Origin: Actinoplanes sp. L3-i22
GTDB taxonomy: Bacteria; Actinomycetota; Actinomycetes; Mycobacteriales; Micromonosporaceae
DNA: 64,000 bases
Direction of reading: 5' to 3'
Assembly: GCF_019704555.1 (NCBI RefSeq)
Contig: NZ_AP024745.1
Coordinates: 8,750,501 to 8,814,500 of the forward strand
The notes under the pieces were generated by a model. The model made no database searches. It was given only the letters and a program-made list of their open reading frames with translations, and had not been told where the DNA came from. Positions 15,156-35,618 of the stretch are shown here, in pieces; within the stretch, counting starts at the first letter, position 1, and every line of letters starts with the position of its first letter. Position numbers and translations under genes: made by a program.

Positions 15156-15162
15156 TCTAGCG

Positions 15163-16834: not shown

Positions 16835-16851
16835 ATTTCGCACCGCGAAAC
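16835..16851. promoter_or_regulatory. Operator O2 upstream of iclR
   Basis: Half-sites at 16835 (ATTTCGC) and 16845 (GCGAAAC), spaced by ACC. The core TTTCGC / GCGAAA is a perfect inverted repeat. On the minus strand TTTCGC at 16850-16845 could serve as -35 for a TAGGCT -10 at 16829-16824, so binding here would block iclR transcription. Confidence 0.72.
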
Positions 16852-16868
16852 GCTGTACCGATCCGGCG

Positions 16869-16927
16869 TTGACAGACCCCCGGCCACCTCGTTACCTTCG
16901 CGGTAACGCTGTTTCCCAAGGCGAAAC
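16869..16927 (+). promoter_or_regulatory. Promoter and operator array O3 of the flavin reductase operon
   Basis: A -35 TTGACA (16869-16874) is followed after 17 bases by TTACCT (16892-16897). Four half-sites then lie at 10-base steps: 16891 GTTACCT, 16901 CGGTAAC, 16911 GTTTCCC, 16921 GCGAAAC, in alternating orientation. The first two form the palindrome GTTACC / GGTAAC over the -10, the last two match the window-wide operator. Binding would cover the -10 and the transcription start. Confidence 0.7.
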
Positions 16928-16955
16928 GGCCAGACCTGAAAGCGGAGTGCGACAG

Positions 16956-20670: not shown

Positions 20671-21539
20671 CCGCTTCCGCGCTGCGCGCGCTCCTCACCT
20701 CCGGCCGGGTCACCCACGTGCCCGGCGTCTACGACCCGGTGACCGCCGCGCTCGCGGTCGCGGCCGGCCATCGGGCCGTGCACCTCTCCGGCGCGGCCGT
20801 CTCGGCGACCATGCTGGGCCGCCCCGACCTCGGTTTCGTGCACGCCACGCAGATCGCCGACCGGGCGGCCACGCTGGTCCCGGCGCTGCAGGGGGTGCCG
20901 CTGCTGGCCGACGCGGACACCGGGTACGGCAACCCGGTGCACGCGGTGTGGACCGGGCTCGCCTACAGCCGCGCCGGGATCTCCGGGCTGCACCTGGAGG
21001 ACCAGGTGAGCCCGAAGCGCTGCGGGCACCTGGCCGGCAAAGAGGTGATCGAGGTCGGACTGGCGGCCGCCAAGATCCAGGCGCTGGCCGATCAGGTGCC
21101 GGAGCTCGCGGTGATCGCCCGGACCGACGCGTACGCCGTCAACGGCCTGGCCGACACGATCGAGCGGTGCGTGGCCTACGCCGAGGCGGGCGCGGACGCG
21201 GTCTTCCCGGAGGGCGTCCGGACGATCACCGAACTCGCCGAGATCCAGCGCGCGCTCCCCGGCGTACCCCTGGTGGTCAATCGCAGCGAAGCTGCCGGCG
21301 CGCCGCCCGCCTGGACCGACGCGGACCTCGCGGAGGTCGGTGTCCGCTTGGTCCTGCACCCGGTCGCCGCTCTGCTCGCCGCCATGCGCGCGGCGTCGGT
21401 GACCTATCGCGCCATCGCCGAGACCGGCAGCGCCGACGACGTCGAACGGATGCCGTGGGCGGCCTTCACCGCGCTGGTCGGCCAGGACGAGGCCCTCGAC
21501 CTGGACGCCCGCTATGTCCCACGGAGGTTGGAGACGTGA
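20667..21539 (+). CDS. PEP mutase / isocitrate lyase family enzyme
   Basis: 290 residues, ATG overlapping the preceding stop. A PEP-mutase/ICL-type barrel: VPGVYDPVTAALAVAAGHRAVHLSGAAVSA, ADADTGYGNP (metal ligands), SGLHLEDQVSPKRCGHLAGKEVI with the mobile-loop KRCGH catalytic Cys, and VIARTDAYAVNGL. KRCGH marks the lyase branch (methylisocitrate lyase, 2,3-dimethylmalate lyase, oxaloacetase) rather than the mutase. Cleavage of an alkylated malate or isocitrate to a keto acid plus succinate or propionate would suit the neighbouring CoA and MmgE/PrpD enzymes. Confidence 0.9.
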   Translation: MTASALRALLTSGRVTHVPGVYDPVTAALAVAAGHRAVHLSGAAVSATMLGRPDLGFVHATQIADRAATLVPALQGVPLLADADTGYGNPVHAVWTGLAYSRAGISGLHLEDQVSPKRCGHLAGKEVIEVGLAAAKIQALADQVPELAVIARTDAYAVNGLADTIERCVAYAEAGADAVFPEGVRTITELAEIQRALPGVPLVVNRSEAAGAPPAWTDADLAEVGVRLVLHPVAALLAAMRAASVTYRAIAETGSADDVERMPWAAFTALVGQDEALDLDARYVPRRLET

Positions 21540-22690
21540 GTCGTGTCGTCGTCGCCGGCGCCGGGCCGGTCGGTCTGACCGCCGCCCTGGCGCTGGCCCG
21601 GAAGGGCGTCCCGGTCACCGTGCTGGAGTCCGGCGGGGACCTGGCCGCCGAGTCCCGCGCGTCGACGTTCCACCCGCCGACCCTGGAGATGCTCGACGAC
21701 CTGGGCATCGGCGCCGAGCTGCACGACCGCGGCCTGCTCGCGCCGACCTTCGCCTACCGCGACCGCGCCGCGGGGCTGATCGCCCGGCTGGACCTGGCGG
21801 TGCTGGCCGGCGACACCCGGTTCCCCTACCGGCTGCAGTGCGAGCAGTCCAAGCTCACCCCGATCCTGCGCGCTCACCTGCTGCGGCACGACGGCTGCGA
21901 GATCCGGTACGACTGGCATCTCGCTGCGGTCACCCAGACCGGCGACACGGTGACCGCGCGGTCCGCGGACGGCCGGACCGCCGAGGGCTCCTGGCTGATC
22001 GGCGCGGACGGCGCGCACTCCGCCACCCGCCGCGCGACCGGCACCGGGTTCGACGGCATCACCTATCCCGAGCGTTTCCTGGTCGCCTCGGCCGACGAGG
22101 ACCTCACCGCCTGGCTGCCCGATCTGGCCGCGGTCAACTACGTCTTCGACCCGGTCGAATGGTGTGTCCTGCTCCGCACCCCGGACCACTGGCGAGTCCT
22201 GCTCCCCACGCCGGCCGAGACCCCGGACGAGGTGGAGTACGCCCGCCTGGACGAGCGCCTGCGCGGCGTCTTCGACCCGGGCCGCCCGTGGCGGATCGCG
22301 CACGCCTCGATGTACCGGGTCCACCAGCGGGTGGCCGCCGCCTTCCGGGTCGGCCGGGTGCTGCTGGCCGGGGACGCCGCGCACGTCAACAACCCGCTCG
22401 GCGGCCTGGGCATGAACTCCGGCATCCACGACGCCGTCGCCTACGCGGACGCGCTGGCCACCGGCGATCCGGCGGTGGTCGACGCCGCCGCGGCCCACCG
22501 CCGCCGGATCGCGCTCGAATACGTGCAGAGCGTCTCGCACCAGAACTACGAGCGCCTGCGCGCCACCGACCCGGCGGCCCGCGCCACCTACCTGGACTCG
22601 CTGCGGGCCACCGCGGCCGACCCGGTCAAGGCCCGCGCGTCCCTGCTGCGCAGCTCGATGATCGCCTCGCTGCGCCCGGTGACCGCATGA
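21536..22690 (+). CDS. FAD-dependent aromatic-type monooxygenase
   Basis: 384 residues, GTG at 21536 overlapping the previous stop. Class A flavoprotein monooxygenase: VVVAGAGPVGLTAALALARKG (GxGxxG, residues 4-24), the DG motif in WLIGADGAHSATRR (about 155) and the second FAD motif VLLAGDAAHVNNPLGGLGMNSGIHDA (about 282). It hydroxylates an aromatic or enol substrate with NAD(P)H and O2. The 6-hydroxynicotinate and salicylate hydroxylases belong to this class, but the substrate here is not determinable. Confidence 0.9.
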   Translation: MSRVVVAGAGPVGLTAALALARKGVPVTVLESGGDLAAESRASTFHPPTLEMLDDLGIGAELHDRGLLAPTFAYRDRAAGLIARLDLAVLAGDTRFPYRLQCEQSKLTPILRAHLLRHDGCEIRYDWHLAAVTQTGDTVTARSADGRTAEGSWLIGADGAHSATRRATGTGFDGITYPERFLVASADEDLTAWLPDLAAVNYVFDPVEWCVLLRTPDHWRVLLPTPAETPDEVEYARLDERLRGVFDPGRPWRIAHASMYRVHQRVAAAFRVGRVLLAGDAAHVNNPLGGLGMNSGIHDAVAYADALATGDPAVVDAAAAHRRRIALEYVQSVSHQNYERLRATDPAARATYLDSLRATAADPVKARASLLRSSMIASLRPVTA

Positions 22691-24105
22691 CCGACCTGAT
22701 CGAGCGGGAGAATCCGGCCCGGTTCGCCGAGATCGTCGGCGCGGTCGCGGTGACGTCACCGGCCGAAGTGGACGCGATCGTCCGCCGGGCCGACGCGGAA
22801 CAGCGCCGCTGGGCGGCCACCCCGCTGCCGGACCGGCTCGCCGCGCTGACCGGCGCCGCGACCGCGCTCGAGAACGCCGTCGAGGAGCTGGCCACGCTGC
22901 TGGCCAGGGAATCCGGCAAGGTCCTCGCGGACTGCCGCGGCGAGCTGGGCTTCGCGGTTCGCTTCCTGCGCTGGGTGGTCTCAAGAGCGATTTCGGCGTA
23001 CGCCGACAGCACCGTCGACGACGATCTGGGCCGTCTCGTCCTGCTCCGCAAGCCGTACGGCGTCATCGCCGCGATCACGCCCTGGAACGCCCCGGTGATC
23101 CTGGCGATGCTGAAGATCGCCCCGGCCCTGGCCGCCGGCAACGCCGTGGTGCTCAAACCGTCCCCGCTGGCCCCGCTCACCATCTCCCGGGTGGCCGCGC
23201 TGTTCGAGGCCCCGCTGACCGTGGTGCACGGCGACGGCGCGACCGGCGCCGCCCTGGTCGGTCACGACCTGATCCGCAAGGTCGCGTTCACCGGCGGCGC
23301 GACCGGTGGCCGGGCGGTGGCCGCGCTGGCCGGCGACCGGCTCACCCCGTCGGTGCTGGAGCTGGGCGGCAACGATCCCGCGGTCTTCCTGGCCGACGCC
23401 AGTTTTACCGACGCGGCGATGGATCGCCTGGTGATGGCCACGTTCGCGACGAGTGGTCAGGTCTGCATGGCGGCCAAGCGCCTGTACGTCCCGGAGTCCC
23501 GTCTCGACGACTTCGTCGCGGCGTACCGGGCCGCCGCCGACCGGGTCCTGGTCACCAGCGACCCGCTGGCCCCCGGCGCGACGATGGGCCCGGTCATCTC
23601 GGCGGACGCCCAGCGGTCCGCCGCCGCGTTCCGGGACGACGGCGCCCTGGTCGATCTCGGTCGTTTCGACGCCGACCCGGCGACCGGCTACTTCGTGCGC
23701 CCGGGCCTGGTGGTGGCCCCGGATCCGGATTCCCGGCTGGTCCGCACCGAGCAGTTCGCCCCGGTCGTCCCGGTCCTCGGCTACCGCGACGAGGAGTCGG
23801 TCCTGGCCGCGGCGAACGCGGGTGACCTGGGGCTGGGCGCCTCGGTGTGGAGCGCCGACGAGGAGCGGGCGTTCGCGTTCGCCCGGCGGTTCGAGGCCGG
23901 GTTCGCGTTCGTCAACACCCACAACCGGACCGGGATGTCGCTGCGGGCGCCGTTCGGCGGGGTGAAGCGTTCCGGCTGGGGTCGCGAGTACGCCGAGGAG
24001 GGCCTGCTCGAATACGTCCAGACCTGCGTGATCCACGCGCCGGCGGCGTTCCGGCCGGGCGCGGAGATCCCCGCCGCCGGTCCCTCGGCGTACCCGGCCG
24101 GCTGA
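22687..24105 (+). CDS. Aldehyde dehydrogenase (second paralogue)
   Basis: 472 residues, ATG overlapping the FAD monooxygenase stop. ITPWNAPVILAMLKIAPALAAGNAVVLKPSP, FTGGATGGRAVA, LELGGNDPAVFLADA and the nucleophile in TSGQVCMAAKRLYVP are all present; the C-terminus has AGFAFVNTHNRTGMSLRAPFGGVKRSGWGREYAEEGL. Similar to benzaldehyde/salicylaldehyde or semialdehyde dehydrogenases. Last gene of the rightward operon that begins at 16956. Confidence 0.92.
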   Translation: MTDLIERENPARFAEIVGAVAVTSPAEVDAIVRRADAEQRRWAATPLPDRLAALTGAATALENAVEELATLLARESGKVLADCRGELGFAVRFLRWVVSRAISAYADSTVDDDLGRLVLLRKPYGVIAAITPWNAPVILAMLKIAPALAAGNAVVLKPSPLAPLTISRVAALFEAPLTVVHGDGATGAALVGHDLIRKVAFTGGATGGRAVAALAGDRLTPSVLELGGNDPAVFLADASFTDAAMDRLVMATFATSGQVCMAAKRLYVPESRLDDFVAAYRAAADRVLVTSDPLAPGATMGPVISADAQRSAAAFRDDGALVDLGRFDADPATGYFVRPGLVVAPDPDSRLVRTEQFAPVVPVLGYRDEESVLAAANAGDLGLGASVWSADEERAFAFARRFEAGFAFVNTHNRTGMSLRAPFGGVKRSGWGREYAEEGLLEYVQTCVIHAPAAFRPGAEIPAAGPSAYPAG

Positions 24106-24625: not shown

Positions 24626-24907
24626 TCAGGCGGTGTAATCCACGACCGCGCGGGAAACCAGTAGCGGGCGCACCCAGGCACCGAATTCGTGGTGCGCCGG
24701 ATGTGCCTGATAGGACCGCAGGTCGTCGGCGTCCCGGTGGGTGGTGCGCAGGAACAGATGCCAGGAGACTTCGGTGGCGAGCTCGTCCACCGCCACCTCG
24801 ATCGAGCGGATCGCGGGAACGACACCGGCGAGTTCTTCCAACCGCAACCTGGCCTTGGCAGCATCGCCCGCGTCGGCGAACTTCATCAGCACCACATGGA
24901 CCAGCAC
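24626..24907 (-). CDS. Dabb (stress-responsive A/B barrel) domain protein
   Basis: 93 residues from the GTG at 24907 (VLVHVVLMKFADAGDA), with GGGAGG just upstream. One dimeric alpha-beta barrel domain: HVVLMKF at the start, ELAGVVPAIRSIEVAVDEL in the middle, SWHLFLRTTHRDADDLRSYQAHPAHHEFGAWVRPLL with the conserved His pair. Dabb proteins include small cyclases and decarboxylase-like enzymes (olivetolic acid cyclase type). It is divergent from the nitrilase-to-maleate-isomerase operon and shares its intergenic region. Two direct ACGAAAC repeats lie at 24938 and 24950 in front of it. Confidence 0.85.
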   Translation of the reverse strand: MLVHVVLMKFADAGDAAKARLRLEELAGVVPAIRSIEVAVDELATEVSWHLFLRTTHRDADDLRSYQAHPAHHEFGAWVRPLLVSRAVVDYTA

Positions 24908-24961
24908 GAGGCCTCCCGACGACAACTCAAGAACGTGACGAAACCGCAGACGAAACCTCTG

Positions 24962-25017
24962 TTGCGAATGTGGCACCCAAGTGTAGTTTTGGGAAACGCC
25001 GTTTCGCTAGGGGGAAC
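24962..25017 (+). promoter_or_regulatory. Promoter and operator array O4 of the RCCR/Rieske operon
   Basis: A -35 TTGCGA (24962-24967) and -10 TAGTTT (24984-24989) are 16 bases apart. Directly downstream are half-sites at 24991 (GGGAAAC), 25001 (GTTTCGC) and 25011 (GGGGAAC), alternating and 10 bases apart. The last one doubles as the ribosome site of the gene starting at 25021. Bound protein would sit over the transcription start, the position of a repressor. Confidence 0.72.
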
Positions 25018-25020: not shown

Positions 25021-26604
25021 ATGCCCGGTGTCGCACGTGTCGCCGCCGCCCAGATCGAAGCCGGTCAGGACGTCGCCGCCAACCTCGCCGCCTGCCTGCG
25101 CGTCATCGACGCCGCCGCGGCCCAACAGGCCCAGCTGATCGTCCTGCCCGAGTTCTGCAACCACCTGTCCTGGTACCCGTCCCGCGCGCGGGCCCGCGAG
25201 CTGGCCACCCGCCCCGGCGACCCGTTCCTCACCGCGATCGCCGACCGCGCGAGGCGACACCAGATCTGGATCAAGATCAACGTCACTTTCGCGTACGCGG
25301 GTGGCCGCACCGGCGGCACGAACCTGCTCCTCGACCCGTACGGCGAGATCGTCGCCCGGTGCGACAAGCAGACCCTGATGGGCGCCGAGAACGACTTCCT
25401 CGACCCGGCGGTCACCGAGGGCCCGATCGTGGACACCCCGCTCGGCCGCCTCGGGATGTACGCGTGCATGGAGGGCGTGATCAGCGAGGTCACCCGCGGT
25501 CTCGCGCTGCGCGGCGCCCAGGTCCTGCTGAACAGCCTGAACAGTTTCGCCCTGGACGAGGCCGACCTGCACATCCCGGTCCGCGCCGCGGAGAACAAGG
25601 TGTGGGTGGTCGCCGCGAACAAGGTCGGCCCGCTGCTCCCCCGCGACGAGCTGCCGGCGATCGCCGAGCGGCTGGGCGTCCCGCCGGAGTGGCTGCACGG
25701 CGCCGGCGAGTCGCAGATCGTCGCCCCGGACGGCACGGTCGTCGCGAAGGCCCCGCGCACCGGCGAGCACGTGATCGTCGCCGACATCGAGCCGGCCCGG
25801 GCCGACGACAAGCGCCGCCCGGACGGCACGGACCTGCTGGCCACCCGCCGCCCCGAGCTGTACACGCCGATCGCCGACCCGCCGGTCGGGCGCCGCCGGC
25901 CGCCGGGCGCCGCCGAGCTGGCGGTCGCGGTGGTCCGCGGTCCCGGCCTGGTCCGCGCCGCGGCGGACCAGGGCGCACGGCTGATCGTCCTGCCGGAACG
26001 CACCGGCGATCCCACGACGATCGCGGAGGCCCTGAACGGGACCGAGAGTCGGGTCGTCACCACGGTCGTGGACAACGACGTACACCAGGGGATCTTGATC
26101 TCGGCGGACGGCATCGTGGCGCGGCAGCCACAGCTCCACGCGGGCGGCCGCGCCGGGAAGGTGATCGTGCCGATCGACCTGGCGTGGGGCCGGCTGGCGA
26201 TCGTGGTCGGCGACGACGCGCTCTATCCGGAGACGTTCCGGCTGGCCGCGCTCGCCGACGTGGACGTGGTCGCGGTCCCCTGCCGGGCGCAGGAGCCGTG
26301 GGAGCTGGCGCTCGGGCTGCCCGAGCGGGCCGCCGAGAACCGGCTGAACGTGGTGGTCAGCACCCCGCTCGACCAGCCGGCCGCGATCCTCGCGATGAGC
26401 CCGGACTTCACGCTCTGGACCGCGTGGCAGGGCCCGTTCACCGGCCGGATCTCCACCCCGGTCCGCACCGACGTCCCGGCCGGCGTGCCGCTCGGCACGG
26501 CGACCGTCGCTCCCGCCCAGGCCGCGAACCGGATGGTGTCGCGGCAGACCGATCTCGTCGACGGCCGCCCCTGGCGGCTGGCCGGCGCGCTCATCGACAG
26601 ATAA
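25021..26604 (+). CDS. Two-domain nitrilase-superfamily hydrolase, second domain degenerate
   Basis: 527 residues. The first half is a complete carbon-nitrogen hydrolase: Glu in LIVLPEFCN (about 39-47), Lys in RCDKQTLM (about 115-122) and Cys in GMYACMEGVISEV (about 145-157). The second half (about 298-520) repeats the fold with LIVLPERTGDP but has no Lys and reads VVGDDALYPETF where the Cys should be, so it is probably non-catalytic. The family hydrolyses amides, N-carbamoyl compounds or nitriles. It is first in the operon with the tetrapyrrole-type enzymes, so an amide or lactam nitrogen of the substrate may be the target. Confidence 0.88.
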   Translation: MPGVARVAAAQIEAGQDVAANLAACLRVIDAAAAQQAQLIVLPEFCNHLSWYPSRARARELATRPGDPFLTAIADRARRHQIWIKINVTFAYAGGRTGGTNLLLDPYGEIVARCDKQTLMGAENDFLDPAVTEGPIVDTPLGRLGMYACMEGVISEVTRGLALRGAQVLLNSLNSFALDEADLHIPVRAAENKVWVVAANKVGPLLPRDELPAIAERLGVPPEWLHGAGESQIVAPDGTVVAKAPRTGEHVIVADIEPARADDKRRPDGTDLLATRRPELYTPIADPPVGRRRPPGAAELAVAVVRGPGLVRAAADQGARLIVLPERTGDPTTIAEALNGTESRVVTTVVDNDVHQGILISADGIVARQPQLHAGGRAGKVIVPIDLAWGRLAIVVGDDALYPETFRLAALADVDVVAVPCRAQEPWELALGLPERAAENRLNVVVSTPLDQPAAILAMSPDFTLWTAWQGPFTGRISTPVRTDVPAGVPLGTATVAPAQAANRMVSRQTDLVDGRPWRLAGALIDR

Positions 26605-26613
26605 GGGAATCCG

Positions 26614-27426
26614 ATGGCGGAGACACTTCAGCACGTCGAGGACATGGTCGACAGCTCCCCGGTGGTCGACGTGCACGACACGTTCAGCTTCTACCGGCAA
26701 CTGCTCGCCGACCTGAAGGCGAAGATCGACGCCCGGTTCACCACCACCCGCGATCCGTCCTCGCTGGAGCTGCAGACCTACGGCGGCTACCCGGACGGGC
26801 CGGGCGGCTCGCTGGAGGCCTACTCCGGGCCGGAGGTCGACTGGATGGTGCACTCCTGGCTCGGCAACCCCGGCGCCAGCTTCGCGAACCTGCATCTGAC
26901 CTGCTGGCTGGGCCCGCAGGTGAAGGTGCCGCACCTGGGGATCGCGCTGCTGGTCTGGCCGGGCGGCTGGTTCTACCTGGACTCGGTGCCGCGGACGAAC
27001 ATGGTCGAGGACGGGGCGTACTTCGACAAGTACTACGCCGAGCTCGACGAGGAGTGGCTGGAGCTGCGCGGCGACCCGCAGTTCGAGTACTTCGTGAGCC
27101 GGGCCGGGTTCATCCGGGCCAGCCTGTCGCCGACGGCCTACTGCTACTCGTTCGAGCGCAGCGAGCGCAACCTGGCGATCGTCTCGGCCCGGGCGCACGC
27201 GCACGTGGACCGGTGGCTGCGCTGGGTCGACGAGGCCGAGCCGGTCCCGGCGGACGAGCGGGCCGCGCTCGCCGAGACCGACCTGCGGATCCGCCGGAAC
27301 ATCGCCGAGCGGGACCCGGCGAACGTGATGGGCGTCCGGTTCTTCGGCGAGGAGACGACGAACAAGCTGGTCCGGGCGTTGTGGGGCGGGGACCGGGAGC
27401 TGCCGCGGCCCGGGGTGACCGGATGA
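26614..27426 (+). CDS. Red chlorophyll catabolite reductase (RCCR) homologue
   Basis: 270 residues. The sequence aligns from memory with plant RCCR across its length: VDWMVHSWLGNPGASFANL (about 75-93) matches the VDFVIGSW segment, then YLDSVPR, DGAYFDKYY (about 137) matches the NPDYLKEYY segment, RASLSPTA (about 168) matches RSAFSPTA, and RFFGEETTNKLVRAL near 246 matches RMFGEEVSSRVVHAI. RCCR is a ferredoxin-dependent bilin-reductase-fold protein that reduces the open-chain product of pheophorbide a oxygenase. A catalytic Glu equivalent to plant Glu154 is not evident, so substrate or mechanism may differ. Nine bases separate it from the nitrilase gene; a Rieske oxygenase gene follows two genes later. 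Confidence 0.83.
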   Translation: MAETLQHVEDMVDSSPVVDVHDTFSFYRQLLADLKAKIDARFTTTRDPSSLELQTYGGYPDGPGGSLEAYSGPEVDWMVHSWLGNPGASFANLHLTCWLGPQVKVPHLGIALLVWPGGWFYLDSVPRTNMVEDGAYFDKYYAELDEEWLELRGDPQFEYFVSRAGFIRASLSPTAYCYSFERSERNLAIVSARAHAHVDRWLRWVDEAEPVPADERAALAETDLRIRRNIAERDPANVMGVRFFGEETTNKLVRALWGGDRELPRPGVTG

Positions 27427-28373
27427 TCCGCTCGATCTGGTGGGCCGCGACGATCCCGGGCGCCGACAAGCCGTTCGACACCGCGCACCTGCGGATCTAC
27501 TACCCCGCCGTGGCGACCGGTTCGGATCAGGAGCGGCTCACCGGGGTGTTCCCGGCCGACCCGGCGCAGGCGCCCTATCCGGTGGCGCTGATCGTCTCCG
27601 GCGTCAACGTCGGCCAGGAGGCCTACCGCTGGCTGGCGACCGAACTGGCCGGTCGCGGGTTCATCGCGGTGACCTACGACTGGGTCGGTGAGCTGTTCGG
27701 CGGACTGAAAGGGATCACTCCGGGGGTCATCCTCGACGCCGCCAGGCCCGACTCCTACGGCACCCAGCCAACCACGCCTTCGGTTCCCGCGGTTCTGGAA
27801 GCCCTCGCCGAATCGCCGCTGGCCGAGGTGATGGATCTCGATAAAGTCGGACTTGTCGGTCACTCCGCCGGCGGGACGGTCGTGTTGCAGAGCGCGCGTT
27901 TCTTCCCCAGCGTGAAGGCGGTGGCGGCCTACGGGACGCACACCATGGTCGCGACGATGCTCGGCTGGCCGGCCGGGACGGTCGTGCCGGCCCAGGTCGC
28001 CTCGCCGGTCCTGCTGATGGCCGGCTCGCAGGACGGCGTGATCAACGGATCCGCCGACCGTTACGGCGAAGAAGCAACCTCAAGACAAGACCCGATCTCC
28101 CGTACGTTCGACGAGGCGCTGCCCGACCGCAACGGCGCGAACCTGCAGGTCACCTTCGCCGGGGCGAACCACTTCGGGATCGTGCACCCGGTCGACGAGA
28201 CCGCGGCGCGCGCGTTCCTCGACCTGCCGGCCACCACCGATCCGGCCGTGACCCGGGCGGCGCTGGCCGACGTGCTCGCCGCGTTCCTCGACGTGCACCT
28301 GCGCTCGCTGCCGGGCGACGCGCTGGACAAGGCACTCCAGTCATCCGACATCGCCGCGATCCGGCGGAGGTAA
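27423..28373 (+). CDS. Alpha/beta hydrolase, chlorophyllase/dienelactone-hydrolase-like
   Basis: 316 residues, ATG overlapping the RCCR-like stop. The opening YPVALIVSGVNVGQEAYRWLATELAGRGFIAVTYDW and the nucleophile elbow GLVGHSAGG (Ser near 151) resemble the chlorophyllase/PAF-acetylhydrolase group (plant chlorophyllase has GHSRGG). An acid residue is likely in GSQDGVINGS and the His in GANHFGIVHP. No signal peptide, so cytoplasmic. In this operon a carboxylic ester (for example phytyl or methyl ester of a tetrapyrrole) is a plausible substrate, but that is inference. Confidence 0.82.
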   Translation: MIRSIWWAATIPGADKPFDTAHLRIYYPAVATGSDQERLTGVFPADPAQAPYPVALIVSGVNVGQEAYRWLATELAGRGFIAVTYDWVGELFGGLKGITPGVILDAARPDSYGTQPTTPSVPAVLEALAESPLAEVMDLDKVGLVGHSAGGTVVLQSARFFPSVKAVAAYGTHTMVATMLGWPAGTVVPAQVASPVLLMAGSQDGVINGSADRYGEEATSRQDPISRTFDEALPDRNGANLQVTFAGANHFGIVHPVDETAARAFLDLPATTDPAVTRAALADVLAAFLDVHLRSLPGDALDKALQSSDIAAIRRR

Positions 28374-28378
28374 CAGCC

Positions 28379-29581
28379 ATGCTCAAGAACTTCTGGTACG
28401 CGGTGGAGTTCTCCGACCGGGTCACCACGAAACCGGCGCGGATCACCGTGCTCGGGCAGTACCTGGCCATCTACCGCACCCCCAAGCAGGGCCGCGTGGT
28501 CGTGCTCAGCGACCTCTGCGTGCACCGGGGCGCCGCGCTCTCCGGCGGCCACCTCAAGGACGACAAGATCGTCTGCCCGTATCACGGCTGGGAGTACGAG
28601 CCGGACGGTCAGTGCACGCGCATCCCGGCGAACCTGCCGGGGCGGGCGATTCCGCGCAAGGCTCGGGTGGACTCCTATCCCGTACGGGAAAAATATGGTT
28701 TTGTCTGGGTTTTTCTCGGTGATCTGCCCGAGGAGGAGCGGCCGCCGATGCCGGTCTGGCCGGAGTTCGACGACCTGGTCGAGAACGGCGGCAAGTTCCG
28801 CGTGGTGACCGGCGAGTTCCTGTGGAACGCCAACTACGAGCGGATCCTGGAGAACGGCTGCGACATCGCGCACGCGCCGTTCGTGCACGCCGGGCGGTTC
28901 GGCAACCCGGAGATGCCCGAGGTGCCGGAGTACGAGGTGGAGAGCCCGGACGAGTGGTCCGCGTTCGCCACCGTCGACCTGCACCCGCCGAAGCCGTCCG
29001 GGATCTGGGGCAGGTTCGGCCGGCTGGTCGGCAACGACCTGAAGAAGCGGCCGCCGGTCACCACGTCGGCCGGCTGGATGCTGCCCAACATGATCAAGCT
29101 GCACGTGCGGCTACCGATCGGCGACATGGTCATCTACGACACCAACATCCCGATCGACGAGACGCACACGCTGGTCAAATGGGTCGCGCTGCGGACGTTC
29201 TTCACCGGCAGGTGGGCCGACAAGGACGCGATCAACCGGACCATGCGGATCTTCTACGAGGACGCCGCGGTGGTCGACAAGGTGCGGCCCGAGCTGCTGC
29301 CGTTCGATCTCGGGGCGGAGCTGCACATCAAGAGCGACATGATCGCGGTGCACTACCGGCGGCGGCGTCAGGAGCTGGCCGAGAAGGGGTGGCTGCTCAA
29401 TGAGGAGGACTTCATCACCGGGGACGTCCCGAAGCGGACGGCGACCGTGATCCCCTCGCCGGCGCGGCGGGAGAACCCGGAGCTGAGCCGGGCCTGGGTG
29501 CACAAGGCCCGCGGCGAGCACCCCAGTGTGGCCGCCGCCCAGATGATCGACCCGCCCGCGTCTTCGGAGGACGAGAAGTGA
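28379..29581 (+). CDS. Rieske non-heme iron oxygenase, PaO-like by context
   Basis: 400 residues. Rieske cluster ligands CVH (about 43) and CPYH (about 64); mononuclear iron site ENGCDIAHAPFVH (about 158-170) giving the Asp/His/His triad; C-terminal substrate domain to 400. Architecture fits the single-subunit group of Rieske oxygenases that includes vanillate demethylase, phthalate dioxygenase and the plant PaO/CAO/Tic55 group. No dedicated ferredoxin or reductase gene is seen nearby. Its position between two RCCR-type reductase genes suggests it opens a macrocycle as PaO does; the alternative is ordinary aromatic oxygenation or demethylation. Confidence 0.9.
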   Translation: MLKNFWYAVEFSDRVTTKPARITVLGQYLAIYRTPKQGRVVVLSDLCVHRGAALSGGHLKDDKIVCPYHGWEYEPDGQCTRIPANLPGRAIPRKARVDSYPVREKYGFVWVFLGDLPEEERPPMPVWPEFDDLVENGGKFRVVTGEFLWNANYERILENGCDIAHAPFVHAGRFGNPEMPEVPEYEVESPDEWSAFATVDLHPPKPSGIWGRFGRLVGNDLKKRPPVTTSAGWMLPNMIKLHVRLPIGDMVIYDTNIPIDETHTLVKWVALRTFFTGRWADKDAINRTMRIFYEDAAVVDKVRPELLPFDLGAELHIKSDMIAVHYRRRRQELAEKGWLLNEEDFITGDVPKRTATVIPSPARRENPELSRAWVHKARGEHPSVAAAQMIDPPASSEDEK

Positions 29582-30267
29582 GCCTGCCCGCCGAGCTGTC
29601 CGACACGACTCTTTCCAAGATCCTCGACCGCTTCCCGGTCGTGCTCGACTCGGACCGCGAGCTGACCTCGCCGATGAGTCCCGCGCCGGTCGGGCGGATC
29701 CGGGTCTGGCGCGGCGACGGGCCGGTCGTCAAGGTGGTCAACGTGTCGCTGGTCGTGCCGCCGATCGGGCTGGACAGCCACATGATCTTCGCGTTCACCG
29801 CGCCGTCGTCGGGCGTCCCGCACTTCACCGTCGACTCGGTGGCCAACGGGGAGAGCTACGCGTTCCACCTGGATCTGATCCCGCGGATCGACCTGGCCAC
29901 CTCGCTGTCCTATCTGGACCAGGTCTACGAGCCGCTCACGCCGCTCTACCAGGAGGTACGCGGTCGCGAAGGCCTTACCCCAGCACACCTGACGCCGCGC
30001 CAATATGCTCTTATGTCGCCTTGGATGCTGGTGAATCGGGCAACGGCTGAGGCCTTTGTCGGCATCGGCGAAGCCGTGGACGCCTACGTCACGCACTGGG
30101 CCGGGCTGGTCGAGGCCGGGATCAAGGCGGACGGCACCGCCGAGCGCGACGCCGAACACCGCGCGCTGCTGTTCAGCCCGGAGATCGACCCGGTCTGGAA
30201 GCAGACCGTGCGGCTGCTCGGCGAGGAGCAGAGCGAATCGGTCCGCGCCGAGCTGGTGGCCAACTGA
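29578..30267 (+). CDS. Divergent RCCR / bilin-reductase-like protein
   Basis: 229 residues, GTG at 29578 overlapping the Rieske stop. The layout parallels RCCR: a beta-rich first half (VVKVVNVSLVVPPIGLDSHMIFAFTAPSSGVPHFTVDSV), then FHLDLIPRIDLATSLSYLDQVYEPL (compare LDLPHRKDL), YALMSPWMLVNRATAEAF, a helix VDAYVTHWAGLV and an end PVWKQTVRLLGEEQSESVRAEL (compare FGEEVSSRVV). I read it as a second, more distant member of the ferredoxin-dependent bilin reductase fold, perhaps a subunit partner or a second reduction step. The homology call is weaker than for the gene at 26614. Confidence 0.6.
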   Translation: MSLPAELSDTTLSKILDRFPVVLDSDRELTSPMSPAPVGRIRVWRGDGPVVKVVNVSLVVPPIGLDSHMIFAFTAPSSGVPHFTVDSVANGESYAFHLDLIPRIDLATSLSYLDQVYEPLTPLYQEVRGREGLTPAHLTPRQYALMSPWMLVNRATAEAFVGIGEAVDAYVTHWAGLVEAGIKADGTAERDAEHRALLFSPEIDPVWKQTVRLLGEEQSESVRAELVAN

Positions 30268-31187
30268 TGACCGCGCCGAGCGTCTGGCAGCAGCGGATCG
30301 CCGGGGAGTGGCACGGCCGGCCGTCGCTGTTCGACCACGCCGGCACGTGGTGCGGCTACGAGGAGATCCACCGGTCGTCGGAGTTCGCGGACGGGGTCAC
30401 GACGTACAAAATGGATGGTGGTTTGATCGGGGGTGGGCCGCTGGCCGGGCAGTTCCGGCTCGGCGCGCCGTTCTCGTTCGGCGTGCTCGACTCGGACGCC
30501 AACCGGGTCTACACCGGGCCGGACTTCTTCGGCACCGGGCAGCCCTACGGCGGGTTCGTCGACTCGCACTACTACGGGCCGGGCTGGCAGGTCGACCTGA
30601 ACACCTGGAACCAGGTGCTGCCGGACGGCGAGACCCAGGTCTACTCGTCCGTGCTCTACCAGGGCTGGGCGGTCGTGGGCTGCTTCAACGGGCTCTACAC
30701 CCGGGTGCCCGGGCGGGTCGACCCGCTGATCGACGCGGAGACGCGCAACGGGCCGGTGCCGTACATCCTGCCGACCAAGCGGGCCGGGCGCTTCACCGGT
30801 GCCCTCGAACACTGGGGCGCCGATCAGAAGCTCCGCGGTTCGGTCACGGTCGCTCTCGCCTTGGAACCCATCAACCTCTTGCGTACGAAACGGGTCGTCA
30901 CCTGGCATGGCCCGAGCCTCGACCGCGCGTTCACCGTGGAGACCCGCCGCGACGGGAACCGGCTCTTCTTCGAGGGGCCGGACGCCTACGGCAACGCGAT
31001 CGGATTCGGACGCGCCTCGTTCTCGTCCCTGCATCTGAACGACGTCTGGAAGGTCAAGGGGCGGGAGTTCACGCTCGACGCCTCGCCCGGAATGTCCGCC
31101 GGGGGCCGGCTGTCGGTCGTCTACGAGCTGTTCGAAGGCGGGAACCTGGACTCGGTGCTGCACGGCGTGCTGGAGTGGGAATCGTGA
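30267..31187 (+). CDS. Beta-rich protein of unknown function in tetrapyrrole-type operon
   Basis: 306 residues, ATG overlapping the previous stop by one base. Rich in Gly, Trp, Tyr and Phe in alternating patterns, e.g. GEWHGRPSLFDHAGTWCGYEEIHRS at the start, GGFVDSHYYGPGWQVDLNTWNQVL near 93 and a second half with RKTVVTWHG-like strands ending LDSVLHGVLEWES. This looks like two calycin-type barrels (lipocalin or DUF3598-like), a fold often used to bind pigments or hemes. No signal peptide. I do not recognise a characterised family; a chromophore-binding or lyase-like role is suggested only by fold impression and neighbours. Confidence 0.65.
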   Translation: MTAPSVWQQRIAGEWHGRPSLFDHAGTWCGYEEIHRSSEFADGVTTYKMDGGLIGGGPLAGQFRLGAPFSFGVLDSDANRVYTGPDFFGTGQPYGGFVDSHYYGPGWQVDLNTWNQVLPDGETQVYSSVLYQGWAVVGCFNGLYTRVPGRVDPLIDAETRNGPVPYILPTKRAGRFTGALEHWGADQKLRGSVTVALALEPINLLRTKRVVTWHGPSLDRAFTVETRRDGNRLFFEGPDAYGNAIGFGRASFSSLHLNDVWKVKGREFTLDASPGMSAGGRLSVVYELFEGGNLDSVLHGVLEWES

Positions 31188-31957
31188 CCGGGCCGGTCGT
31201 GGTGGTCACCGGGGGGACGCGCGGAATCGGTCAAGGGCTGGTCCGGGCGTTCGCTGCTCAGGGCGCTTCGGTAGCCTTCTGCGGTCGCTCGGACGCGTCC
31301 GTGCAGGGGGCCGGCGCGCCCGGCGACGTGCTCGGTGTGGTGGCCGACGTGACCAGTCGTCACGACGTACGCAAGCTCTGGGATGCCACGGCGGACCGGT
31401 TCGGGCGGGTCGACATCTGGGTCAACAACGCCGGCCTCTCCACCTCCCGGCGGAAACTCTGGGAACTCGACGCGGACGAGATCGACGCCGTCGTCGACGT
31501 GAACCTGCGCGGCACGCTGCACGCCAGCGCGGTGGTCCTGGACGCGATGCTGGCGCAGGGGCACGGCGCGCTGTGGAACATGGAGGGCCTCGGGTCGAAC
31601 GGGCAGATCGTGGCCGGGCTGACGCCGTACGGGGCGACCAAGCGCGGGCTGACCTACGCGACCATGGCGATGGCGAAGGAGCTTTCCGGCACGCCGGTGA
31701 CGGTGGGACTGCTCTCCCCCGGGATGGTGGTGACCGACCTGCTCACCCGGGACTACTCGCCCGAGGAGTTCGAGAAGGCGAAGAAGATCTTCAACATCCT
31801 GGCCGACCGGGTCGAGACCGTGACGCCCTGGCTGGCCGCGAAAGTGCTGGCCGGGGTCAAGAACGGGGGCCGGGTCGCCTGGCTCACCAACCGCAAGGCG
31901 GCGTACCGGTTCGCGACCGCGGCGTTCACCAGGCGCGACCTGTTCCCGGGGGCGTGA
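31184..31957 (+). CDS. Short-chain dehydrogenase, chlorophyll b reductase (NOL/NYC1)-like
   Basis: 257 residues, GTG at 31184. Standard SDR parts: TGGTRGIGQG (about 8-17), NNAG (about 80), YGATKR catalytic Tyr/Lys (about 147-152). Beyond these, WNMEGLGSNG, LLSPGMVVTDLL, KKIFNILADRVETV and LTNRKAAYRFATAAFTRRDLF follow the order and spacing of plant NOL (NIDGAGSDG, LSPGMVTTDLL, FINVLAEPAEVV, LTGLKAYSQIFSRF). NOL/NYC1 reduce the 7-formyl group of chlorophyll b. Comparison is from memory; the C-terminal agreement is what makes it more than a generic SDR. Confidence 0.8.
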   Translation: MTGPVVVVTGGTRGIGQGLVRAFAAQGASVAFCGRSDASVQGAGAPGDVLGVVADVTSRHDVRKLWDATADRFGRVDIWVNNAGLSTSRRKLWELDADEIDAVVDVNLRGTLHASAVVLDAMLAQGHGALWNMEGLGSNGQIVAGLTPYGATKRGLTYATMAMAKELSGTPVTVGLLSPGMVVTDLLTRDYSPEEFEKAKKIFNILADRVETVTPWLAAKVLAGVKNGGRVAWLTNRKAAYRFATAAFTRRDLFPGA

Positions 31958-32688
31958 CCGTGGCGTACCCGGTGGTTCTCGCGCTCGAAGATTTTGTCCC
32001 GACATTTCTCGGTTCAGTGGGATTCGGGCTGCTCGGCCGCCTCGCGCCCACCTCGCCGGCGCGGCGGGCCGGGCTGGCCGGGGCCGTGCTGATCGGGCTC
32101 GGCGGCGGCGCCAAGTGCCTGTGGAAGCTGCTGGTCGCGGCCGGCGCGGGCGACTTCCCGGTGCTCGAACAAGCGCTGTTTCCGCTGATGGCGGCCGGGG
32201 CCTGCCTGCTCGCCTGGTCGCTGGCCGTGACGATCCGGCGCGGGCGGCGTACCCAGGTGTGGGGTTTTGTCGTGGTTTATCTGGTGGGTGTCGGGGGCTC
32301 GATCGCGGCCGGCAGCCTGCACCCGATGTTCGTGGTCGCGACGTTCGGGGTGACCGCCGTCAGCGTGCTCGGGGCGATCGTGGCCGGGCGGTACCGGCAG
32401 TGGTGGGCGGTGTCGCTGTTCGTGCTCGGGCTGGTGCTGGTCACCTCGCTGGTGCCGCTGCGGCAGTCGCCGAAGCACGAGACGCTCGCCTATCAGTGGC
32501 TGGAGCAGTCCCTCAACACGTCCGCGCAGTTGGCGCTGCTGGTGGCGGCTCTGCTGACCGTGCGCGCCCTGCGCCTTTCCCCCGTCTTTTCCCCCACCGC
32601 CTCTTCCCCCGCTGGTCCTTTTTCCAGCGCCACATCCAGCACGCCGGATTCGGCCGTTGCGTCCGGCACGCTTGAGGAGACCGCATGA
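31954..32688 (+). CDS. Multi-pass membrane protein of unknown function
   Basis: 244 residues; GTG at 31954 overlaps the SDR stop. Six or seven hydrophobic segments fill residues 5-205 (e.g. ALFPLMAAGACLLAWSLAV, VWGFVVVYLVGVGGSIAAG, WWAVSLFVLGLVLVTSLVP); the C-terminal 35 residues are Ser/Pro/Thr-rich and polar. Charged residues between segments are few. No family recognised. Being inside the Rieske/RCCR operon it may move a substrate or product across the membrane or anchor the enzymes. Confidence 0.75.
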   Translation: MTVAYPVVLALEDFVPTFLGSVGFGLLGRLAPTSPARRAGLAGAVLIGLGGGAKCLWKLLVAAGAGDFPVLEQALFPLMAAGACLLAWSLAVTIRRGRRTQVWGFVVVYLVGVGGSIAAGSLHPMFVVATFGVTAVSVLGAIVAGRYRQWWAVSLFVLGLVLVTSLVPLRQSPKHETLAYQWLEQSLNTSAQLALLVAALLTVRALRLSPVFSPTASSPAGPFSSATSSTPDSAVASGTLEETA

Positions 32689-33428
32689 CCGACGCCCTCG
32701 GGTGGCGCCGCAAGTTCGGCGTGATCGCCCCGTCGACCAACACCATCGTCGAACCGGACTTCTACCGGATGACCGTGCCCGGGGTGACCGCGCACTTCTC
32801 CCGGATCCACATCCGCAACCAGGACCTCTCCGACGACGCCAACTTCGAGAACCTGCTGGTCCAGATCCGGGCCGAGATCGGGTTCGCCTGCGAGCGGGTG
32901 CTGACCTGCGAGCCGGACTACATGGTGATGGGCATGTCCGCGGAGACGTTCTGGGGCGGGGTCGAGGGGAACCGCGAGTTCGTCGGCCAGATCAAGGCGA
33001 TCACCGGGCTGGAGGTGGCGACCGGGGCGGAGGCGTGCGAGCGGGCGCTCAAGCTCTACGGCGCCCGCAAGATCGGCGTGGTCACCCCCTACCAGCCGGT
33101 CGGCGACGCGAACGTGGTCCGCTTCTTCGGCGAGATCGGCTTCGAGGTGACCGCGATCGAGGGTCTGAAATGCCCGACCGCGGTCTCCATCGCCCACGTC
33201 ACCGAGGACGAACTGCGCGCCGCGATCCGCTCCGTCAACGGCCCGGACGTCGACGCGATCGTCCAGTGCGGCACCAACCTGTCCATGATCAGCCTGGCCG
33301 ACGAGGCCGAACGCTGGCTGGGCAAACCGGTCATCGCCATCAACGCCGCAACCTGGTGGATGGCCCTCCGCGACAACGGAATCACCGAAAAACTCCACGG
33401 CGCCGGCAGCCTCCTCCGCAACCACTAA
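32685..33428 (+). CDS. Maleate isomerase / arylmalonate decarboxylase family enzyme
   Basis: 247 residues, ATG overlapping the previous stop. Asp/Glu-racemase-superfamily protein: KFGVIAPSTNTIVEPDFYRM at the start, ARKIGVVTPYQPVGDANVVRFFGEIGF near 124, and the second catalytic Cys in IVQCGTNLSM near 190. At the first Cys position the sequence reads VMGMSAETFWGG, so the two-Cys pair of true maleate isomerases seems reduced to one, as in arylmalonate decarboxylases. Candidate reactions are cis-trans isomerisation of an alkyl-maleate or decarboxylation of a malonate. Last gene of the operon starting at 25021. Confidence 0.85.
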   Translation: MTDALGWRRKFGVIAPSTNTIVEPDFYRMTVPGVTAHFSRIHIRNQDLSDDANFENLLVQIRAEIGFACERVLTCEPDYMVMGMSAETFWGGVEGNREFVGQIKAITGLEVATGAEACERALKLYGARKIGVVTPYQPVGDANVVRFFGEIGFEVTAIEGLKCPTAVSIAHVTEDELRAAIRSVNGPDVDAIVQCGTNLSMISLADEAERWLGKPVIAINAATWWMALRDNGITEKLHGAGSLLRNH

Positions 33429-34160: not shown

Positions 34161-35618
34161 GTGAGCGAGCAGCTGCCACCCCCGCCGAGTCACGGAACGC
34201 CGCATGGCGACCCGGCTCCGTCGCCCCATACACCCGATTCGTCCGCCTCGGCCGACGCAACGATCGCCCACCCGGCCCCGAGCGACGCAACCGTCGCCCA
34301 GCCGACCGCGAGCGACCCAGCTCCGAGCGAGCCGACCTGGAGCGAGCCGGCCCCGGCCGATGCGACGATCGCCGACGTGAACGCGGCCGACACCCCGGCC
34401 CACCCCGAGTTCCCCGCCGGGCCGACATCCGCGGACGAGTCCGGGCCCGCCCCCGCGGACGAGACCTACGCCTACCGCGTCCCGGACCCGACCTCCACCT
34501 ACCCGGCCCCGGAGCCCACCGCCCCCTACGCGGCCCCGGCCTTCCCCCCACCCCCGGACGCCGCCCCGAGCCCGCCCGTCCAGGCCTACCAGCCGCCGGC
34601 CTCCCCGGCTCCGGCCCCGACCTTCCCGGCCCCCGGCCAGGCTTTCCCGGCCCCCGGCTTCCCGCCCCCGGGCCAGGCGTATCCGGGCTACCCGCCCCCC
34701 GGCGGCGGCCAGGCCTACCCCGGCCAGGCCTACCCCGGCCAGGCATATCCCGGGCAGGCATATCCCGGGCAGGCATATCCCGGGCAGGCGTACCCCGGGC
34801 AGGCATACCCCGCCCCCGGCTACCCGCCGACGGCCTACCCCGCCCCGGGCCAGCCCACCTATCCCCCGGCCGCCGCCTACCCGGCCCCGGGCTATCCCCC
34901 GGCCGCCGCCTACCCGGCCCCCGGCTACCCGCCGACCGGCTACCCGGGCCAGTTCCCGCCCGCCGGCTACTACCAGCAGGCCCCGGGATTCCCCGCGCCC
35001 CCGAACCCGTACCAGAGCCAGGAGACCAACCGCCTGGCGATCATCTCCCTGGTCACCGGCTTGATCGGCCTGATCCCGTTCGGCCTGATCTTCGGCATCC
35101 TGGCGATCCGGCAGATCAACCGCACCGGCGAGCGCGGCCGCGGCCAGGCCGTCGGCGGCCTCATCGCGGCCGGCGTCTGGATGTACATCGTCTACTCGAT
35201 CATCATCGGCGTGCGGGGCGCCAACGCCTACGAGGACGCGATCAACAACAGGTACGCGAGTCCGACCAGCAACTCGCGGGGGATGGCCGGCCTCTACCCG
35301 GGTATCTGCATCGACAAGATGTTCGGCAGTAACGCCGAGGCGCTGACCATCGTGCCGTGCACCTCGCCGCACGAGGCCGAGGTCTACTCGGTGTTCACCC
35401 TGCCCGAGGCGGACGGTTTCGAGGGCGCCACGGCGACCCGGGACCGGGTCCGGGAGAGCTGCGAGGGCGACTTCCAGCGTTACCGGGTCGGCAAGGACGC
35501 GACCATGCGGGTCGAGTTCCTCTATCCGGCCACCGAGACGGACTGGTACGACGACCGCAGTGTGGTCTGTGTCGCGGTCGATCCGAGCGGCCCACGCACC
35601 GGTTCACTGCAGGACTGA
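34161..35618 (+). CDS. Proline-rich DUF4190-type membrane protein with septum-formation-like domain
   Basis: 485 residues from a GTG at 34161. Residues 1-285 are Pro/Ala-rich and include seven QAYPG repeats. Two membrane segments follow at about 292-315 (LAIISLVTGLIGLIPFGLIFGILAI) and 330-352. The external C-terminal part (about 370-480) has CIDKMFGSNAEALTIVPCTSPHEAEVYSVF and ESCEGDF, the septum formation-type domain with paired Cys. Typical of actinobacterial envelope proteins that interact with the wall or signalling; exact role unknown. Confidence 0.85.
   Translation: MSEQLPPPPSHGTPHGDPAPSPHTPDSSASADATIAHPAPSDATVAQPTASDPAPSEPTWSEPAPADATIADVNAADTPAHPEFPAGPTSADESGPAPADETYAYRVPDPTSTYPAPEPTAPYAAPAFPPPPDAAPSPPVQAYQPPASPAPAPTFPAPGQAFPAPGFPPPGQAYPGYPPPGGGQAYPGQAYPGQAYPGQAYPGQAYPGQAYPGQAYPAPGYPPTAYPAPGQPTYPPAAAYPAPGYPPAAAYPAPGYPPTGYPGQFPPAGYYQQAPGFPAPPNPYQSQETNRLAIISLVTGLIGLIPFGLIFGILAIRQINRTGERGRGQAVGGLIAAGVWMYIVYSIIIGVRGANAYEDAINNRYASPTSNSRGMAGLYPGICIDKMFGSNAEALTIVPCTSPHEAEVYSVFTLPEADGFEGATATRDRVRESCEGDFQRYRVGKDATMRVEFLYPATETDWYDDRSVVCVAVDPSGPRTGSLQD
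34707..34812. repeat. 15-bp QAYPG repeat
   Basis: About seven 15-bp units encode QAYPG within the proline-rich region. Several neighbouring units are identical (ggcaggcatatcccg type), showing recent expansion. The frame is kept. Confidence 0.9.

Follow-up and report, generated by a model that had tools for sequence, protein, structure and literature searches.

We analysed a 64,000-nucleotide stretch of the genome of Actinoplanes sp. L3-i22 (NZ_AP024745.1, positions 8,750,501–8,814,500; hereafter the window), which carries a gene for a homologue of the plant red-chlorophyll-catabolite reductase (RCCR) within a large cluster of catabolic-type genes. The genome amounts to 12.0 Mb in one contig. 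The cluster comprises 29 genes over 28 kb (5193–33428), arranged as divergent blocks flanking the gene of an IclR-family regulator. A preliminary description had read positions 25021–33428 as one transcription unit encoding homologues of the plant chlorophyll-breakdown enzymes, and all the open reading frames that it named are present as written.

The RCCR homologue, RCCR1, is encoded at 26614–27426 on the forward strand. A Pfam check had been proposed for it, and the protein passed: it matches the RCC_reductase model PF06405 with 59.2 bits against a gathering cut-off of 24.9, while the bilin reductase (FDBR) model PF05996 reaches 22 bits, under its cut-off of 31. Conversely, a profile of 24 RCCR1 sequences matched Arabidopsis RCCR with an E-value of 1.3e-19 over 229 positions. 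With residue numbering anchored on the F218V mutant entry, D234 of RCCR1 aligns with Asp291 of Arabidopsis RCCR, and an RDPxN motif is present in 81/81 RCCR1 sequences. The position of Glu154 is taken by Ala in 74 of the 81 and by Glu in two, both cyanobacterial (L079, L080). Glu154 and Asp291 are residues important in plant RCCR; judged by Pfam and by alignment, RCCR1 is thus an RCC_reductase-family protein minus one of these active-site residues. Its closest relatives are at most 93% identical and come from Actinoplanes or close kin. PF06405 is matched in 3 of 396 sampled genomes of the phylum, the present one among them, and in none of 14 controls; the gene is therefore rare and not a housekeeping one. 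Within the family, RCCR1 was found in 29 of 200 genomes.

A second protein of this kind, RCCR2, is encoded at 29578–30267 (forward strand). Its predicted model has the RCCR/FDBR fold, as the preliminary description had proposed, and PF06405 scores it at 16.1 bits, below the cut-off of 24.9; going by the model, RCCR2 is a member of the fold that lies outside the RCC_reductase family as the cut-off draws it. Two motifs occur in 69/69 RCCR2 sequences: PHF-x-x-D, the invariant Asp of which aligns with Glu154, and an Asp-Pro motif at about the place of Asp291. Matches to RCCR2 in cyanobacterial loci (25–29%) fall on the RCCR1 gene itself and were excluded from the neighbour counts given below. The differing active-site residues suggest that RCCR1 and RCCR2 probably protonate or reduce different bonds. 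Directly downstream, 30267–31187 (forward strand) encodes a double lipocalin-like barrel protein with a DUF3598/BFA1-like fold. A PDB profile search with this protein returned a single row at chance level (E 0.95), which we discarded.

Between the two RCCR-fold genes lie those for an alpha/beta hydrolase (27423–28373) and a Rieske oxygenase (28379–29581), both on the forward strand. The hydrolase belongs to the DLH family and has a GxSxG motif in 65/65 orthologues; its similarity to chlorophyllase is weak (PF07224, 18.5 bits over 36 residues, cut-off 26), so that the alpha/beta hydrolase part of the earlier ‘chlorophyllase-like’ label holds and chlorophyllase itself is not supported by Pfam. 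Similarly, the ‘PaO-type’ oxygenase is a Rieske oxygenase (PF00355, PF19112), with the 2Fe-2S and mononuclear iron motifs in 67/67 orthologues, but it is not a PaO. The PaO domain PF08417 gives no match in the protein at E-values up to 1, nor is it matched in the genome that carries the window (G000) or in two others of the genus (G568, G534); in three of three cyanobacterial genomes tested it is matched elsewhere in the genome. The protein is of the VanA/SxtT type, and its closest solved structures are SxtDIOX/SxtT.

The operon starts with a gene for a nitrilase-superfamily carbon–nitrogen hydrolase (CNH; 25021–26604, forward; PF00795, E 4.3e-42), in which the Pfam match covers residues 6–264 of 527 and a Cys motif is present in 58 of 68 orthologues. 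Downstream of the barrel gene, a NYC1-like SDR is encoded at 31184–31957 (forward). It scores 108.4 bits, with an alignment reaching residue 246, against a reconstructed NYC1 sequence, compared with 96.6 bits for the best PDB SDR; on the same reconstructed sequence 60 of 64 cluster SDRs exceed 96.6 bits (range 81–142). As far as that sequence allows, the SDR of this conserved operon is NYC1-like, in line with the preliminary description, and possibly a chlorophyll b reductase. An SPGMV-x-T motif is found in 51 of 63 SDRs. We rejected the NYC1-like SDR as a specific marker of the system, as six of seven sampled genomes carrying such an SDR have no RCCR. Five of the six, all actinobacterial, have NYC1-like SDRs that are 38–49% identical to the cluster SDRs (L107–L111), and neither RCCR nor any other cluster gene lies on the stretches examined, four of which are contigs shorter than 12 kb. 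The operon closes with genes, again on the forward strand, for a membrane protein (31954–32688; hydrophobic by sequence, no Pfam family, conserved in 10/10 same-family loci) and for a protein of the AMDase/maleate-isomerase/EutA superfamily (32685–33428; PF17645) with one catalytic-type Cys and a QCGT-type motif in 56/56 sequences. Maleate cis-trans isomerase has two catalytic Cys; the AMDase-like protein has the second only, the first aligning with no Cys, and the assignment as maleate isomerase was accordingly dropped.

How far the unit extends was read from a tblastn comparison of window genes with ten loci of the same family, each on a stretch of 39–40 kb. The genes tested between 7698 and 33428 are present in 10/10 loci, with the exception of gene 24184 (0/10); gene 6062 is present in 9/10 and four further genes within 5193–9632 in 9–10/10. 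The tested flanking genes, in contrast, are found at 50% identity or more in just 0–3 of the ten loci. Because conservation spans 5193–33428 and the flanks are not conserved, we define a 29-gene, 28-kb unit, and a unit restricted to 25021–33428 is ruled out by the same conservation tables. That shorter range, earlier taken as one transcription unit, is a conserved operon but covers less than one-third of the 28-kb unit. Outside it are the genes for CoA-transferase, hydratase, lyase and additional oxygenases, which give the unit the look of full catabolism; the shorter range holds nine of the approximately 38 genes considered below. Just beyond the cluster, a 15-bp tandem array (34706–34845) encodes AYPGQ-type repeats of a 485-residue protein.

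A wider set of 81 RCCR1 loci, including the own truncated locus L001, was drawn with peptide patterns of the window's RCCR1 (the best 80 of 86 relatives), a procedure that under-samples distant contexts. A neighbour was scored as present if more than 40% of the query was covered at more than 35% identity, and the stretches reach 10 kb from RCCR1, so that distant genes are under-counted. The genes for CNH and the Rieske oxygenase are each near RCCR1 in 70 loci, followed by RCCR2 (69), the barrel protein (68), the SDR (66), the alpha/beta hydrolase (65), the AMDase-like protein (56), aldehyde dehydrogenases 2 and 1 (53 and 50), FMO (49), Dabb (45), the ACAD-like protein (40), IclR (38), flavin reductase (29) and the ICL-type lyase (20). 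The hydrolase gene separates RCCR1 from the Rieske gene in most actinomycetes. The order RCCR1–Rieske–RCCR2–barrel is preserved in the distant-family loci L105 and L106; a CitE-like gene adjoins RCCR1 in L106 and lies ~5.5 kb away in L105. The 11 loci that lack the Rieske gene are nine cyanobacterial ones, L019 and L048. In the latter two (Actinoplanes couchii, RCCR1 75% identical, and Nonomuraea corallina, 65%), the Rieske, RCCR2 and barrel genes are all missing from the 10 kb on either side of RCCR1. In two Nocardia loci (L050 and L056), a second AMDase-like gene (55–56%) and a CitE-like gene follow directly downstream of the operon. Taken together, the unit is a real, conserved and unusual catabolic gene set.

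The left arm begins with a run of reverse-strand genes. Those present in 9/10 same-family loci encode a CitE-like lyase of the HpcH/HpaI aldolase/citrate lyase family (5193–6065; PF03328, E 7.8e-31), the gene for which also stands beside RCCR1 in loci from Acidimicrobiia; an acyl-CoA dehydrogenase (6062–7228; PF00441, E 9.4e-50; start read from the sequence, with the frame continuing to 7624); and a ChsH2-type OB-fold/zinc-ribbon protein (7228–7554; PF01796, PF12172). Present in 10/10 are the genes for a thiolase/lipid-transfer-like protein (7698–8810, start approximate, frame open to 9011; PF22691, E 4.5e-46), a MaoC-like protein (8807–9184; PF01575), a MaoC-like protein with an FAS1_DH region (9171–9632; PF13452), a protein with a C-terminal RidA (L-PSP) domain (9626–10636; PF01042, E 1.3e-15), MmgE/PrpD family protein 1 (10624–11979; PF03972, E 1.5e-62), the family III CoA-transferase CaiB1 (11976–13445; PF02515, E 2.9e-121) and a luciferase-like (LLM) flavin/F420 oxidoreductase (13442–14410; PF00296, E 7.2e-52). 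The best NCBIfam match of CaiB1 is succinate--glutarate CoA-transferase (257.8 bits, cut-off 750), followed by succinyl-CoA:mesaconate CoA-transferase (231.6 bits, cut-off 700). A 30-bp tandem repeat in six copies (7533–7712) lies between the OB-fold and thiolase genes.

The last gene of this run (14646–15110, reverse) encodes a mesaconyl/itaconyl-CoA hydratase-like MaoC protein (PF19315, E 2.4e-19), which scores 205.5 bits against the NCBIfam model for RipB/Ich, with a cut-off of 340. Its orthologue, at least 61% identical, lies on the RCCR1 contig 11–27 kb away in 20 of the family's 29 RCCR1 genomes; one of the rest has it on a different contig and eight have merely a 43–46% paralogue. In the genus itself, 8/8 RCCR1 genomes have a copy of at least 85% identity, compared with 0/20 genomes without RCCR1 that have a copy of at least 60% (three of these have a 42–50% copy). 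The presence of this MaoC gene tracks that of RCCR1.

Around the regulator, forward-strand genes follow for a membrane protein (15127–15858; hydrophobic by sequence, no Pfam family), a flavin reductase (16743–17900; PF01613, E 9e-43), an acyl-CoA-dehydrogenase-fold protein with HsaA/DszC-like similarity among others (17906–19180; PF08028/PF02771), aldehyde dehydrogenase 1 (19177–20670; PF00171), a methylisocitrate-lyase-like ICL/PEP-mutase lyase (20667–21539; PF13714), an FAD monooxygenase (21536–22690; PF01494, E 3.2e-54) and aldehyde dehydrogenase 2 (22687–24105; PF00171, E 5.4e-116); a Dabb (A/B barrel) protein is encoded on the reverse strand (24626–24976; PF07876). All are present in 10/10 same-family loci. 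The acyl-CoA-dehydrogenase-fold protein, for which every NCBIfam match is under cut-off, is perhaps a two-component monooxygenase. The ICL-type lyase scores 225.7 bits against PrpB (cut-off 354) and is, as noted, the least frequent neighbour in the wider set. ARAGORN called a tRNA-Ser at 23816–23910, inside the aldehyde dehydrogenase 2 coding sequence; the call is probably false.

The IclR-family regulator is encoded at 15910–16779 on the reverse strand (PF01614, E 1.2e-43; 10/10 loci). Two operator-like palindromes, ATTTC-N7-GAAAC (16835–16851) and GTTTC-N7-GAAAC (16911–16927), stand ahead of it and of the flavin reductase gene, the true start of which is probably downstream of 16927. A further operator-like site, GTTTCGCTAGGGGGAAC (25001–25017), ends 3 bp ahead of the start codon of the CNH gene, with which the RCCR operon begins, and others lie at 44935, at 48397 and 48417 between the CaiB2 and amidohydrolase genes (two sites, 48397–48433) and at 61038–61054 (GTTTCGCTAGACGGAAC). 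The window contains 18 palindrome matches at 11 places with at most one mismatch, against 4.43 matches expected (0/100 shuffles), although the pattern was derived from this very window, so the comparison is not independent and relatives are the better test. Among these, 26 of 27 loci from actinomycetes and 10 of 10 from Acidimicrobiia (36/37) match the degenerate palindrome without mismatch upstream of IclR. The corresponding figure for random windows, taken from the same loci and therefore possibly containing true sites, is 22/740 for exact matches and 53/740 with at most one mismatch. Before the CNH gene the palindrome is exact in 14 of 64 relatives and present with at most one mismatch in 53.

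A second block of nine genes lies further right. On the reverse strand, MmgE/PrpD family protein 2 (45059–46429; PF03972, E 8.4e-57) and a cyclase-family hydrolase (46426–47193; PF04199, E 8.6e-27) have homologues of 49–55% and 52–55%, respectively, in Acidimicrobiia RCCR loci and in L105; they are followed by CaiB2, a family III CoA-transferase (47193–48377, reverse; PF02515, E 5.8e-115), and an amidohydrolase (48450–49877, forward; PF01979, E 1.4e-19). Next come genes for a DUF4437/cupin protein (57515–58348, reverse; PF14499), homologues of which are near the operon in 10 searched loci, and for an AMP-binding protein of acyl-CoA ligase type (58345–59868, reverse; PF00501, E 2.1e-83), which adjoins the DUF4437 gene in eight loci. 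An HMGL-like protein (60006–61064, reverse; PF00682, E 3e-30) occurs in 18 loci and CaiB3, another family III CoA-transferase (61082–62275, forward; PF02515, E 6.2e-132), has 66–74% homologues in 12. An isochorismatase-family hydrolase (62275–62943, forward; PF00857, E 4.2e-34) is encoded beside CaiB3 in L046 and L053 and also in L054.

What ties this block to the operon is the gene order in 13 loci that we group as Acidimicrobiia (L059–L067 and L069–L072; two are labelled just ‘bacterium’ and one ‘marine group bacterium Sva0996’). There the genes form a single run, CaiB3–HMGL–amidohydrolase–PrpD2–cyclase–CaiB2–IclR–CNH–CitE–RCCR1–Rieske–RCCR2–barrel, with the hydrolase and SDR genes ~4 kb further on. 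PrpD2–cyclase–CaiB2 stand left of IclR in 10 of the 13, the stretches of L064, L067 and L072 ending at that point; CaiB3 is present in eight, HMGL and the amidohydrolase in nine each, and the hydrolase with the SDR in ten, missing in L059, L061 and L071 (where the stretch ends). Window homologues of all genes of this run sit at 5–33, 45–50 and 60–63 kb, and for the AMP-ligase and DUF4437 genes (57–60 kb) other actinomycetes have homologues close to the operon. Together with the operator-like sites at 48397/48417 and 61038, these homologues suggest that some 38 genes (29 + 9) in the window may form one regulon.

Phylogenetic analysis was performed on 52 rows, with L103 (a wrong open reading frame) left out and plant rows trimmed to the last 276 residues. 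The RCCR1 sequences group together with 92/98 support, as do the RCCR2 sequences with 100/99. The tree does not settle the order of the two relative to plant RCCR and PcyA, or the place of the cyanobacterial sequences within RCCR1; a sister relationship of RCCR1 and plant RCCR is neither rejected as a constraint (p-AU 0.534) nor shown. The cyanobacterial relatives of RCCR1, from Nostoc/Anabaena and kin (L073–L081), are 42–47% identical. On their stretches no Rieske, RCCR2 or barrel gene was found; in L074 (9947–13249) genes for a nitrilase and an aldehyde dehydrogenase come after RCCR1, and nitrilase-like and aldehyde dehydrogenase matches occur in five of nine loci each, some loci being short.

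What might such a gene set do? The tetrapyrrole reading is the best, with chlorophyll as the likeliest source, and we see a near-even chance that the conserved 29-gene cluster dismantles a chlorophyll-type tetrapyrrole, the fragments of which would then likely be fed to central metabolism. In this scheme, the chemistry of which is deduced throughout from protein families, a phytyl or methyl ester would be removed by the alpha/beta hydrolase, while reduction of a formyl or keto group would fall to the NYC1-like SDR. Oxidation and opening of the ring, which PaO carries out in plants, would be the task of the VanA-type Rieske oxygenase. RCCR1 and RCCR2 would then use ferredoxin electrons to reduce the opened chain, each at a methine bridge of its own, and the coloured intermediates could be held or carried by the double-barrel protein. 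The reduced chain would be cut to pyrrole lactams, and these opened to branched unsaturated diacids, by flavin monooxygenases, aldehyde dehydrogenases and C–N/ring hydrolases (the nitrilase and the cyclase, amidohydrolase and isochorismatase types of the second block). A CaiB CoA-transferase, the mesaconyl/itaconyl-CoA hydratase-like MaoC and the CitE-like lyase could convert the diacids to products at the level of pyruvate and acyl-CoA. Control of the whole set would lie with the IclR protein, acting at GTTTC-N7-GAAAC sites. Hematinic acid and maleimides are reported among the monopyrroles to which chlorophyll and heme break down (PMC7318184). If hydrolysed, they would be expected to yield branched unsaturated diacids of this type.

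A point that weighs against a chlorophyll substrate lies in the genome itself, which has two heme oxygenase genes (PF01126; G000:C1:487537–488142 and 604234–604779). They lie near 0.49 and 0.60 Mb, a long way from the window (8.75–8.81 Mb). They slightly lower our confidence in chlorophyll and raise it in an unlikely alternative, in which the same machinery serves heme-derived bilins (biliverdin, bilirubin, phycobilins), the RCCR/FDBR pair reducing a ready-made bilin and the Rieske enzyme oxidising the reduced bilin later. RCCR1, however, prefers RCCR over FDBR models (59 vs 22 bits), heme oxygenase is absent among the cluster proteins scanned, and an NYC1-like SDR with an ester hydrolase would suit chlorophyll better.

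A departure from tetrapyrroles altogether, with the RCCR/FDBR fold reused as a ferredoxin-dependent reductase or a non-redox protein in an ordinary aerobic degradation cluster for aromatics or N-heterocycles, strikes us as rather doubtful. The PDB relatives of the Rieske protein, namely SxtT and the caffeine and dicamba demethylases, would fit it, as would IclR control, flavin monooxygenases, aldehyde dehydrogenases and CoA enzymes, all typical of aromatic degradation; AMDase-like, MmgE/PrpD and CaiB proteins are general ones, and the fold also occurs in coproporphyrinogen oxidase and in chains of a chloroplast motor complex. Against it stands the presence of two RCCR/FDBR-fold paralogues, a lipocalin-like barrel and an NYC1-like SDR within one unit, and, to our knowledge, the characterised RCCR/FDBR-fold enzymes act on tetrapyrroles. 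Highly improbable, finally, is that the cluster, instead of degrading a bilin or pyrrole, builds or modifies a specialised metabolite out of it: the actinomycete setting and the use of reductase–oxygenase pairs in biosynthetic pathways speak for it, but synthase, carrier-protein and glycosyltransferase families are absent from the Pfam results for the 29 genes, and the CoA-transferase, hydratase, lyase, thiolase and acyl-CoA dehydrogenase genes suit breakdown. Tetrapyrrole metabolism, for which the preliminary description had seen no obvious alternative, is where the RCCR homologue, the second RCCR fold, the Rieske oxygenase and the NYC1-like SDR of one operon point.

The broader proposal that we would tentatively put forward is RCCR-based chlorophyll mineralisation: an IclR-controlled regulon of non-photosynthetic actinobacteria, from Actinoplanes to Acidimicrobiia, that might lead from the opened macrocycle to CoA-level metabolites, a non-PaO Rieske enzyme opening the ring and two RCCR-fold paralogues reducing the chain. 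If so, the bacterium would likely gain food from chlorophyll pieces. Chlorophyll turnover, made and destroyed, is put at ~10^12 kg a year (PMC7318184). Yet the fate of the ring in soil and sea after plant or algal death is poorly linked to particular genes. With a defined set of bacterial genes centred on RCCR, this question would become directly testable; RCCR would also gain a bacterial family with a different active site, which would bear on the origin of plant RCCR.

Among the matches listed, the open-access literature contained no description of an RCCR-centred cluster of this kind. The FDBRs (PcyA, PebA/B, HY2), with their conserved C-terminal Asp-Pro motif, share the fold and that motif with the proteins studied here, and RCCR2 carries Asp where Glu154 stands in plant RCCR. 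The closest work uses RCCRs and related sequences as an outgroup of bilin reductases and describes bacterial pre-PcyA clusters that contain globins plus, by type, heme oxygenase, an Fe–S protein and V4R proteins, or a B12-binding protein (PMC10151467); the present cluster differs in having Rieske, SDR, hydrolase and CoA-enzyme genes instead. The cyanobacterial RCCR1 loci resemble it in the RCCR1 relative and its nitrilase and aldehyde dehydrogenase neighbours, but not in Rieske, RCCR2 or barrel genes on their stretches. Itaconate/mesaconate degradation proceeds through the CoA-transferase RipA/Ict, the hydratase RipB/Ich and the lyase RipC/Ccl. CaiB, RipB-like MaoC and CitE-like genes likewise share one cluster here, and the superfamilies are the right ones (CitE was compared by Pfam only), whereas their setting is an RCCR–Rieske cluster and CaiB1 and MaoC fall under the NCBIfam cut-offs. 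Lastly, the plant PaO/phyllobilin pathway comprises chlorophyllase, NYC1/NOL, SGR, PaO and RCCR. The likeness consists of an RCCR-family protein and an iron–sulfur oxygenase in one unit, together with an NYC1-like SDR and an ester-hydrolase-fold protein; yet the cluster is no copy of the plant set, since its Rieske protein is outside the PaO family, no SGR was seen, RCCR1 is without Glu154 and there are two RCCR-fold paralogues. While vacuolar nonfluorescent chlorophyll catabolites (NCCs) are regarded as end products in plants (PMC7318184), in these actinobacteria the RCCR–Rieske genes are accompanied by genes for breakdown at the CoA level.

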